64,000 nucleotides of DNA, from the NCBI RefSeq assembly GCF_001753245.1, contig NZ_CP017415.1:1268501-1332500 (forward strand). The letters are read 5' to 3'. Position 1 is the first letter of the stretch; each line of letters begins with the position of its first letter. The DNA comes from Acidihalobacter yilgarnensis. GTDB taxonomy: Bacteria > Pseudomonadota > Gammaproteobacteria > DSM-5130 > Acidihalobacteraceae. The position numbers and the translations under genes were made by a program. This document shows positions 15,253 through 59,605 of the stretch, in pieces. The notes beneath the pieces were generated by a model that was given only the letters and a program-made list of their open reading frames with translations, did no database searches and had not been told where the DNA came from.

Positions 15253-16533
15253 TTGTTGCGCTTGTCCGCTCTTTTCACACTGATCTGTTGTCTCGCCTTG
15301 CCCGTTGCCGCTTCGGCATCCGCGGGTGTGGCGGTCGTGATGACGCTCAACGGCGCGATCGGGCCGGCTTCGGTGCGCTACCTCACGCGCGGATTGGCAC
15401 GCGCGGCCGACCAGGATGCGCGCCTTGTGGTTCTCGAAATCGACACCCCCGGCGGCCTGGCTTCCTCCACACAGTCGATCGTGCGCGCAATCCTGCATTC
15501 GCCAGTGCCGGTAGCCGGATTGGTCTTTCCCGCTGGCGCACGTGCGGCGAGCGCGGGCACCTATATTCTCTATGCCTGTCCCGTAGCCGCGATGTCGCCC
15601 GCCACGCACCTGGGCGCCGCGACGCCTATCGCGATGGGGAAATCCGATACTGCCGACCCGGCCGCCCGCAAGCGACTTTCCGACGCGGCGGCCAGCCTGC
15701 GCGCGCTGGCGACGCGTTATGGTCGCAATGTCGACTGGGGCGCCGCTGCCGTACACAAGGGCGCCAGCCTGACCGCCGCCGAGGCGCAGCGGATGCATGT
15801 CATCGATCTCGTGGCGACGAGCCCCGAGGCCCTGATACTCGCGCTCGACGGTCGGCGTGTGCGCGTCGGCGACGGCTGGCAGACCCTCAAGACAGCCGAT
15901 CTTACGGTCGAACGCGATCCACCCGGTTGGCAGGACCAGCTGTTGGCGCTGATCGCCGATCCCAATGTTGCCTATCTGCTGCTGCTGATCGGCTTTTACG
16001 GCATCGTGTTCGAGTTGGCCGGGCCGGGGCTGATCCTGCCGGGCACGGTCGGTGCGATTTCGTTGATCCTCGCGCTCTTCGCATTGCAGGCGTTGCCCAT
16101 CGACTACGCAGGGCTTGGGCTGATGCTGCTGGGTATCGGTCTGATGGTCGGGGAAACTTTCGTCGCCGGCTTTGGCGTGCTGGGTTTGGGTGGCGTCGTC
16201 GCCTTCACGGCGGGTTCACTGCTGTTGTTCGACACACACGACATTCGCGTGTCCTTGCCCATGATCGGGGGCACGGCTGCAATCTCCGCCGGCTTCTTCC
16301 TCTGGCTGATTGGGCGTCTGATCCGGCTGCGCAGACGTGGCGCGGTGACCGGGCGCGAGGCCATCCTGGGTGCTCAGGGCGTGGTGACGGAAGATTTTAC
16401 CGGCCACGGACACATCCACCTTCACGGCGAACTCTGGCAGGCGAACTGCAATTTGCCCTTACGGCGCGACCAACGTGTACGCGTCGTCGCGATTGATGGA
16501 TTGGAACTTACAGTTACTCCTGAGGAGAATTGA
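15253..16533 (+). CDS. nfeD: NfeD family membrane-bound serine protease (NfeD1b)
   Basis: A 426-residue protein with a signal peptide (about residues 1-23), a ClpP-like protease domain, several transmembrane helices (about 230-365) and a C-terminal soluble NfeD OB-fold domain. The likely catalytic serine is Ser100 in A-S-A-G-T-Y and the lysine Lys140 in A-R-K-R-L-S-D-A. The archaeal homologue cleaves its partner stomatin; here the next gene is exactly such a slipin/stomatin protein. The start is TTG at 15253, with TTG at 15256 also possible. Together they probably manage membrane protein quality or microdomains. Confidence 0.92.
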
Positions 16534-16535
16534 AT

Positions 16536-17333
16536 ATGTATATGATTATTCCGGTATTACTGCTTCTTGCTTTAGCCTTTTCCTCAATTCGTATCGTGCC
16601 GGAATACCAGCGTGGCGTGGTGTTTTTCCTGGGTCGCTTTCAGTCGATCAAGGGGCCAGGGCTGATCTTCGTGATTCCGGCGATCCAGCAGATGGTCCGC
16701 GTGGATCTGCGCATCATCACCATGGACGTGCCCAGCCAGGATGTGATCTCGCGTGACAACGTCACCGTCAAGGTCAACGCCGTGCTCTACTTCCGCGTGG
16801 TCGATGCGGAGAAGGCGATCATCCAGGTGGAGAACTACTACATGGCGACCAGCCAGCTCGCGCAGACCACCCTGCGTTCGGTGCTGGGCAAGCACGAACT
16901 CGACGAAATGCTGGCCGAGCGCGACCGGCTCAACGTCGACATCCAGGCGATACTCGACGAACAGACCGCATCCTGGGGCATCAAGGTCACCAACGTCGAA
17001 CTCAAGCAGGTCGAGCTCGACGAGAGCATGGTGCGTGCGATTTCGCGCCAGGCCGAGGCCGAGCGCGAGCGCCGCGCCAAGGTGATCAATGCCGAAGGCG
17101 AGTTGCAGGCCTCGAAGACGCTGTTGCAGGCCGCCAGTGTCATCGCGCAGAATCCGCAGGCCCTGCAACTGCGCTATCTGCAAACGGTGAGCGACATGTC
17201 GACGCGCAACAGTTCTACCATTTTGTTCCCGCTGCCGATGGATATGTTCCGACCCTTCATGCAGTCAGCGGCCGCACCCACACCAGCACCCACACCCGCG
17301 GCCACACCCACAGACAAACCGGATGCGGGCTGA
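16536..17333 (+). CDS. Slipin (stomatin/SPFH family) protein
   Basis: A 265-residue SPFH protein: an N-terminal hydrophobic hairpin (residues 1-18), the prohibitin-homology domain with [12 protein letters not shown] and G-P-G-L-I-F-V-I-P, and a coiled-coil stretch rich in [10 protein letters not shown]. The C-terminal tail has P-T-P-A repeats. ATG at 16536 is chosen because GAGGAG at 16522-16527 is correctly spaced and the nfeD stop lies between them. The NfeD-slipin pair is widely conserved. The 3' end overlaps xerD by eleven bases. Confidence 0.93.
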
Positions 17334-57608: not shown

Positions 57609-58433
57609 GTGAGCGAAGACACCCTCATAAGTAGCGAACACGCCACGGGTCACGCTCAGTCAGAACTGCCGTTTGCCTTGGTCTGGGGCGAACCACTGTC
57701 GAATCCGCCGCAGGATCTATACATTCCCCCCGACGCACTTGAGGTCTTTCTTGAGGCCTTCGAAGGCCCCCTGGACCTGCTGCTGTACCTGATCAAACGC
57801 CAGAACCTCAACATACTCGATATCCCCATCGCCGAGGTGACGCGTCAGTATGTGGACTATATCGCCCTGATGCAGAATCTGCGGCTGGAACTTGCCGCCG
57901 AGTATCTGGTGATGGCCGCAGTATTGGCGGAAATCAAATCGCGCATGCTGTTGCCGAGACCCGCCGAGGTCGAGGCCGATGAGGCCGATCCGCGTGCCGA
58001 GCTGGTCCGCCGTTTGCAGGAATACGAGCGCATCAGGCGCGCAGCTGAAGACATCGATGCGTTGCCACGCATGGATCGTGACTGGATTGCCGTCAACGTG
58101 GCGCCGCCTCCACGAGAGATTGCGCGACCTGAACCCGAGGTCGATTTACGCGAAATTCTTCATGCACTGCGTGAAGTGATGGGGCGTGCACAGATGTTCA
58201 CCCACCATCATATCCAACGTGAGCCCTTGTCCATTCGCGAACGTATGTCGCGCGTGTTGGAACGCCTGGGCGATGATTTCATCGAATTCACCGGTTTTTT
58301 CTCCCCGGAAGAAGGACGCCGCGGCGTGGTGGTCACCCTGTTGGCCCTGTTGGAACTGCTTAAAGAACACCTGATCGAGCTGGTTCAGAACGAGCCCTTC
58401 ACGCCGATTTATGTCAAACGCGCGGATCGTTGA
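57609..58433 (+). CDS. scpA: Segregation and condensation protein A
   Basis: A 274-residue kleisin that bridges SMC heads and binds ScpB to condense and segregate the chromosome. After a variable N-terminus of about 45 residues come the core F-E-G-P-L-D-L-L-L-Y-L-I and Y-L-V-M-A-A-V-L-A-E-I-K-S-R-M-L-L-P. An acidic linker leads to the C-terminal winged helix with V-T-L-L-A-L-L-E-L-L-K-E. GTG at 57609 is the start. scpB follows after nine bases. No smc is in this window. Confidence 0.95.
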   Translation: MSEDTLISSEHATGHAQSELPFALVWGEPLSNPPQDLYIPPDALEVFLEAFEGPLDLLLYLIKRQNLNILDIPIAEVTRQYVDYIALMQNLRLELAAEYLVMAAVLAEIKSRMLLPRPAEVEADEADPRAELVRRLQEYERIRRAAEDIDALPRMDRDWIAVNVAPPPREIARPEPEVDLREILHALREVMGRAQMFTHHHIQREPLSIRERMSRVLERLGDDFIEFTGFFSPEEGRRGVVVTLLALLELLKEHLIELVQNEPFTPIYVKRADR

Positions 58434-58442
58434 GGTCATTCT

Positions 58443-59186
58443 GTGAGTGAAATACCGATCATTCGGCAAGTCATCGAGGCTGCACTGCTGAGCGCTACGC
58501 AACCGCTGAGTCTCGAACGCCTGGAGCGTTTGTTCGAAGGTGAGGAGCCGGCGCTGGATCGCCAGGCGATTCGTCAGGCCTTGGGCGAACTCGCGGATGA
58601 TTGCGATTCTCGCTGCTACGAGCTGAGCGAAGTGGCCAGTGGCTACCGGCTGCAGATCAAGAGCGAATTGGCGCCCTGGATCCATCGTTTATGGGAAGAA
58701 CGGCCGCCGCGTTATTCTCGGGCTACCCTTGAGACACTGGCCTTGATCGCTTATCGACAGCCGATCACTCGCGGTGAGATTGAATCCGTACGCGGGGTCA
58801 GTGTGAGCAGCCATATTATCAAAGGGCTGCAGGAGCGGGATTGGGTCCGTGTCGTCGGCCATCGCGAGGTGCCGGGGCGGCCAGCACTGTACGCGACCAC
58901 ACGCGGGTTTCTGGATTATTTCGGGCTCAAATCCCTGGATGAACTGCCGCCGTTGGCCGAATTTATGGATATCGAAGGCCTGCATCCTCAGTTAGATCTG
59001 GGCGACCCGGAGGCGATAGGCGCCGAAGCCGAAGCCGAAGCCGAAGCCGAAGCCGAAGCCGAAGCCGAAGCCGAAGCCGAAGCCGAAGCCGAAGCCGAAG
59101 CCGAAGCCGAAGCCGAAGCCGAAGCCGAAGCCGAAGCCGAAGCCGAAGCCGAAGCCGAAGCCAAACCGCAGGACGGCGGAGCCTAG
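58443..59186 (+). CDS. scpB: Segregation and condensation protein B with Ala-Glu repeat tail
   Basis: A 247-residue protein. Residues 1-185 form the two winged helices of ScpB, with T-L-E-T-L-A-L-I-A-Y-R-Q-P-I-T-R-G-E-I-E and G-R-P-A-L-Y-A-T-T as family signatures. ScpB dimers bind ScpA in the SMC complex. Unusually, residues 194-239 are 23 exact Ala-Glu pairs, coded by 23 identical GCCGAA units, before the end K-P-Q-D-G-G-A. The tail is strongly negative and probably a long helix. Many ScpB proteins have acidic tails, but rarely one this regular. GTG start at 58443. Confidence 0.95.
   Translation: MSEIPIIRQVIEAALLSATQPLSLERLERLFEGEEPALDRQAIRQALGELADDCDSRCYELSEVASGYRLQIKSELAPWIHRLWEERPPRYSRATLETLALIAYRQPITRGEIESVRGVSVSSHIIKGLQERDWVRVVGHREVPGRPALYATTRGFLDYFGLKSLDELPPLAEFMDIEGLHPQLDLGDPEAIGAEAEAEAEAEAEAEAEAEAEAEAEAEAEAEAEAEAEAEAEAEAEAEAKPQDGGA
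59022..59159 (+). repeat. Hexanucleotide tandem repeat (GCCGAA)x23 inside scpB
   Basis: Twenty-three perfect copies of GCCGAA, then GCCAAA. The perfect identity at third-codon positions points to recent slippage expansion. Copy changes keep the reading frame, so the result would be tail-length variation rather than on/off switching. The opposite strand reads as Leu-Arg repeats, which I do not regard as coding. Confidence 0.97.
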
Positions 59187-59188
59187 AC

Positions 59189-59605
59189 ATGTCGCTGGCG
59201 TTGCGTTATTCGCTGTTCGCCGCCTTGGCGACGCTTGCGAACCTACTAACCCAGGATGTCACGCTGCTCCTGTTTGAGCACCAAGTTTATGCCTTGTATG
59301 TGGCGATGGCGACCGGCACGCTGGTCGGTCTGTATGCGAAGTACGTGCTCGACAAGCGCTATATCTTTGCTTACCGCACGCGCGATGCCGCGCACGATGT
59401 ACGTACTTTCATGCTGTACGCGACGACTGGTGCGTTCACGACGCTGATTTTCTGGGCCTGCGAGCTCGGTTTCTATCACGCCTTCGGCACACATGCCTGG
59501 CGCACTGCGGGCGCAGTGATCGGCTTATCCATCGGTTATTGGCTGAAATACCGGCTTGATCGTCGGTTTGCCTTCGCGACCGCCGCCGATACCGCCACGG
59601 GTTGA
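59189..59605 (+). CDS. GtrA family membrane protein
   Basis: A 138-residue protein with four hydrophobic helices (about 5-25, 35-55, 70-92, 100-120) and basic loops such as K-Y-V-L-D-K-R-Y-I-F. This matches GtrA proteins, which are proposed to flip polyprenyl-linked sugars for cell-surface glycosylation. The C-terminal W-L-K-Y-R-L-D-R-R-F-A-F is typical. ATG at 59189 comes two bases after the scpB stop. No glycosyltransferase partner is beside it, so the pathway is unknown. Confidence 0.88.
   Translation: MSLALRYSLFAALATLANLLTQDVTLLLFEHQVYALYVAMATGTLVGLYAKYVLDKRYIFAYRTRDAAHDVRTFMLYATTGAFTTLIFWACELGFYHAFGTHAWRTAGAVIGLSIGYWLKYRLDRRFAFATAADTATG

Follow-up and report, generated by a model that had tools for sequence, protein, structure and literature searches.

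The window, by which we mean the whole 64,000-nucleotide stretch of Acidihalobacter yilgarnensis DNA that was analysed, has a G+C content of 61.9%; a value of 59.9% is listed for the A. yilgarnensis genome in PMC9062700 (Table 1). On its forward strand, at positions 58443 to 59186, it encodes scpB, with a GTG start codon, a TAG stop codon and a product of 247 aa. The protein carries the domain SMC_ScpB (Pfam PF04079) at residues 10-171 (4.8e-53, 179.5 bits, cut-off 27.4) and also matches the NCBIfam model TIGR00281 (125.3 bits, cut-off 89.2). Directly upstream on the same strand lies scpA (57609 to 58433; Pfam PF02616, 7.7e-30), and the assignment to ScpB is thus supported both by a domain score above the curated cut-off and by an adjoining scpA. 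Downstream, the ATG of a GtrA-family gene (59189 to 59605, forward strand; NCBIfam NF037976, 4.7e-46) begins two bases past the scpB stop; this gene is a neighbour and stands outside the mechanism proposed here. A search for a plasmid copy of the scpB gene gave no near match. The last 78 aa of ScpB (58950 to 59183, forward strand) form an acidic C-terminal tail with 30 Asp/Glu residues versus 1 Lys/Arg, and within this tail, in the last third of the gene, lies a long hexanucleotide repeat.

The repeat consists of (GCCGAA)23 followed by GCC (59022 to 59162, forward strand) and encodes (Ala-Glu)23-Ala. Tandem Repeats Finder described the same interval as an array of period 6 with 23.5 copies, 100% matches and no indels; the 23 exact copies occupy 59022-59159, uninterrupted and in the Ala-Glu frame, and in the assembly sequence the final GCC is directly followed by AAA. 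The DNA, the repeat search and the ORF translation therefore all confirm the 23 uninterrupted, codon-identical copies that the first-pass annotation had reported. In the one-contig genome of 3,566,941 bases this tract was the sole place with at least four exact GCCGAA copies in a row (the 20 matches of the 4-copy search form one overlapping series), and a search allowing up to 3 mismatches per 24 bases added one further, weak place. At the codon frequencies of 11 window ORFs, where GCC makes up 0.40 of Ala codons and GAA 0.49 of Glu codons, 24 GCC and 23 GAA codons in succession have a probability of about 10^-16.7, and therefore the DNA itself is repetitive, beyond the repetitiveness of the protein. 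As a perfect short tandem array in a coding frame, with a unit that is a multiple of three, the tract has the features of an in-frame coding microsatellite. It lacks the off/on switch by frameshift that defines a phase-variable contingency locus: copy number can change without a frameshift because the unit has six bases.

The tract is open in all six reading frames, and the frame two bases on from Ala-Glu reads (Arg-Ser)n and stays free of stops into the GtrA-family gene (59022-59400). These additional open frames are probably a consequence of the repeat. Elsewhere in the window, a 12-mer in 3.2 copies (17272-17309) gives an ORF that we take to be HflC-like (16524-17330 between stops) a C-terminus of Ala/Thr-Pro repeats.

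The core of this ScpB is ordinary and the tail is separate from it. In a structure-sequence search, five solved ScpB-like chains matched the core, with alignments stopping by residue 183. A sixth match, of a ribosomal protein to the low-complexity tail (0.0009), looks spurious. The protein thus resembles the known ScpB of SMC-ScpAB (PF04079, TIGR00281) in its core domain, in its adjacency to scpA and in having an acidic tail as in the sampled relatives, and differs in that the tail here is a 23-copy perfect dipeptide array, whereas the solved chains can be aligned only up to residue 183. AlphaFold2, run on an alignment of 46 sequences, modelled the core confidently and drew residues 189-238 as one helix, with block pLDDT values of 71-92 across residues 191-240. 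Among the five models, mean pLDDT varied from 70.8 to 88.2. The first-pass annotation had proposed that the tail is one long helix, and the prediction is compatible with this while falling short of proof: the helix at 189-238 speaks for it, the variation among models against it.

In order to place the tail in context we collected 135 ScpB loci: 30 from a set of 34 matched genomes, the 80 best of 583 from named genomes (all of genera other than the host genus; near relatives may be left out of this set) and 25 new loci from 332 matched genomes. The sample leans to relatives of the query. After dropping one locus lacking the anchor (L033) and two duplicates (L099, L172), 132 loci were retained, and charges were counted in the 129 of these whose tails did not run off the contig (L021, L048 and L094 did). 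Nearly all complete distinct tails were net negative (128 of 129), with a net charge of -5 or lower in 125 and a median of -23. Lengths ranged from 11 to 324 residues with a median of 88, and 55 of the 129 tails were shorter than that of A. yilgarnensis. As controls we took 281 further ORFs from these loci, whose final 60 residues had a median net charge of -2, versus -16 for ScpB tails of at least 60 residues. A net charge of -8 or lower was found in all 103 such tails and in 38 of the 281 controls; the sequences are related, so that p-values for this comparison, and for that of arrays below, overstate independence. A further draw from the class gave 15 negative tails out of 15, one of them (L208) from the same genome as an already sampled locus (L032). 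Also in other classes of the phylum all 28 tails read were negative, from 28 of 30 matched genomes and with 12 of the 28 belonging to one family; five listed places fell outside this draw, namely two pieces of G401, two sites in G409 and a second one in G417. The start of the tail was set slightly differently among the length, charge and further-draw analyses. Taken together, the sampled sequences indicate that the ScpB tail keeps its charge while its length and sequence vary.

Tandem arrays are concentrated in these tails. Across the 132 loci, Tandem Repeats Finder placed 25 arrays in the tails (22 loci; 38.8 kb in total) versus 51 in the remaining 493 kb of these loci, a 6.2-fold higher density, which becomes 5.2-fold (22 versus 54) if three arrays straddling the tail start (L171, L041, L184) are placed outside. 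All 25 tail arrays have periods that are multiples of three, and arrays with units of up to 12 bases in at least 5 copies numbered 10 in tails versus 1 elsewhere. At the threshold used, 110 of the 132 loci had no tail array, and therefore a ScpB tail need not accumulate arrays. Exact GCCGAA arrays were present in the ScpB tails of Spongiibacter marinus (14.5 copies) and Microbulbifer hainanensis (15.2 copies, on a contig ending in the array), and a shorter GCCGAA array of 3.8 copies, likewise at a contig end, was present in M. mangrovi. A Sedimenticola MAG used the unit ACGGAA and had a near relative with a short form, and other lineages encoded similar residues with different units. Three related genomes (L186, L191, L054) carried 9-mers for Ser-Glu-Ala or Ser-Glu-Thr, with flanks alike and unit mixtures different, which by comparison of the sequences would be a second case of array turnover in ScpB tails. 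The tract had been called unusual in the first-pass annotation. This stands insofar as the array is exact and the only such run in its own genome, but arrays recur in ScpB tails and, as described below, in other acidic proteins.

The first case of turnover is the A. yilgarnensis tract itself. In the closest species (G001), whose ScpB core is 87% identical, the same place is occupied by 20 Ala-Glu or Ala-Asp units (GCC-GAA/GAT), including a GCCGAT block and a 12-mer block, inside an 807-kb contig. The tail of the next relative (G002, 78% core identity) is acidic and free of repeats and likewise starts Ile-Gly-Ala, and two others (G003, G004) have short ScpB tails. Unit content therefore differs among A. 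yilgarnensis (G000), G001 and G002, as is expected of a microsatellite compared between species. When 188 core codons are compared, A. yilgarnensis and G001 differ at 44 of 86 fourfold sites and in 10 of 13 shared Ala codons; despite this divergence all 23 Ala codons within the A. yilgarnensis tract are identical. If the tract had aged like the core, the probability of no change in these codons on its own branch would be about 5e-5, which argues that the array most likely became homogeneous after A. yilgarnensis and G001 had separated. An in-frame expansion of this kind agrees with the earlier proposal of recent expansion by slippage, and the question raised there, whether the tail is conserved in charge and not in sequence, is answered in the affirmative by the ScpB tails compared above. 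The tail has 78 residues both in A. yilgarnensis and in G001, with different arrays. This equality may be a coincidence; it leans against the free variation in length that the first-pass annotation had envisaged between strains, but two species are too few.

The hexamer is also found outside scpB. Six or more consecutive GCCGAA copies were present in 8 of 369 genomes of the class, and among the places read, which were drawn from the first ones listed per genome and did not include contig C41 of G165, only that of A. yilgarnensis lay in scpB. In the seven other genomes the places read were open Ala-Glu frames, mostly in acidic low-complexity stretches. From reading of the ORFs, three arrays (L145, L146, L148) lie in proteins resembling multi-Hpt signalling kinases, perhaps another recurrent site for GCCGAA, and one in G001 lies in the tail of an HDOD-like protein; the remaining host proteins were less clear. 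We therefore rejected GCCGAA as an scpB-specific element, because the same hexamer occurs in other acidic proteins in the Ala-Glu frame. A control hexamer encoding the same dipeptide, GCGGAA, reached six copies in 1 of the 369 genomes, and on this single control GCCGAA may be a favoured unit. A long Pro-Glu array was further seen near position 1500 of L122 (G003), in the acidic N-terminal part of an FtsY-like ORF, again from ORF reading. Such Ala-Glu and Pro-Glu microsatellites of other acidic low-complexity proteins in the class share with the scpB tract the same or a similar hexamer and an acidic dipeptide frame, and differ from it in their hosts, which are unrelated proteins.

We consider it probable that the tract is a coding microsatellite which slippage has homogenised in frame, lying in a tail whose charge is conserved and whose sequence is not. 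The hexamer array would have grown and been homogenised by strand slippage within the acidic tail of ScpB, with the frame presumably held by selection against frameshifts. If the tail needs acidity and no fixed sequence, a repeat of a small and an acidic residue with a unit divisible by three would be tolerated, probably because the negative charge of the tail matters more than its sequence. The role of the tail is likely electrostatic and could be exerted near the DNA-handling SMC heads, for example by weak competition with DNA or by loose protein contacts. Several points weigh against this reading. Pure drift need not yield equal tails of 78 residues in sister species, most loci (110 of 132) lack a tail array, and unequal recombination would leave traces similar to those of slippage, which we infer from its products. 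Functional data on the ScpB tail were not found in literature searches that left subscription papers mostly outside their coverage, and this absence is weak.

A first alternative, akin to the tuning of ScpA/SMC or DNA contacts suggested in the first-pass annotation, is that the tract is a tuning knob, comparable to a contingency locus that has no off state, in which in-frame length variants are selected and adjust the loading of ScpAB-SMC or its affinity for DNA. The retention of an acidic tail in all but one of the 129 ScpB, the concentration of arrays in this tail and the equal total length in the two sister species would fit such a role. A precedent also exists in the 6-bp repeat of mutL, present in three copies in Salmonella and E. 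coli, whose number changes by slipped-strand mispairing; according to the accessible part of PMC2955026, loss of one copy yields a defective gene and raises mutability. The mutL repeat is like the scpB tract in that a core gene carries a six-base unit in frame, and differs in that its three copies lie in a folded enzyme, whereas the 23 copies of ScpB lie in a tail and have no known phenotype. However, the wide range of tail lengths and the many loci without an array argue that no particular length is required across species, and GCCGAA also expands in acidic proteins unrelated to ScpB. We therefore regard tuning as unlikely.

Still less likely is that the count of 23 arose in assembly, a real tract that was shorter, longer or interrupted having been turned into 23 perfect copies. 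Draft contigs of Microbulbifer (L048, L094) end inside scpB arrays, and in the class scan some arrays begin 3 to 8 bases from a contig end (G356, G165), so that assemblers do struggle with such arrays. But the genome analysed here is a single contig, the A. yilgarnensis genome is described as closed in the accessible text of PMC9062700, the comparable array of G001 is embedded in a long contig, and an artefact would alter the copy number and not the existence of the array. Least probable of all, and very unlikely, is that the hexamer is kept for a function in DNA or RNA, such as a binding site, an mRNA structure or coupling to the downstream gtrA-like gene: GCCGAA recurs in scpB of other genera and is commoner than the one control hexamer, but other ScpB tails use other units, and GCCGAA arrays elsewhere are read as Ala-Glu within genes unrelated to scpB. 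A structured RNA was dropped as a candidate, the predicted fold of the tract being worse than those of all 200 shuffles.

The scpB tract, which we read as a slippage-homogenised coding microsatellite, is a striking instance of something already known, the in-frame microsatellite. Neither an acidic ScpB tail nor such an array in ScpB was found in the literature, and no paper on hexanucleotide slippage was found, in searches that mostly did not cover subscription papers, so that the absence is weak; in the accessible portion of PMC7055376 there was likewise no mention of an acidic tail. The solved ScpB structures we found cover the folded core only, and the acidic tail lies outside them. The more useful observation is a general one: the sequences suggest that ScpB of this phylum, as sampled, repeatedly gathers in-frame arrays in an acidic tail beyond the solved structures. 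A bolder extension, to which we give little credence, is that the tail of Pseudomonadota ScpB might be an evolvable electrostatic dial on SMC, with slippage rewriting its length and charge and lineages selecting lengths. If this were true, a microsatellite within a core gene of chromosome segregation would tune SMC activity. The long perfect arrays represent a natural length series for testing what the tail contributes to SMC.
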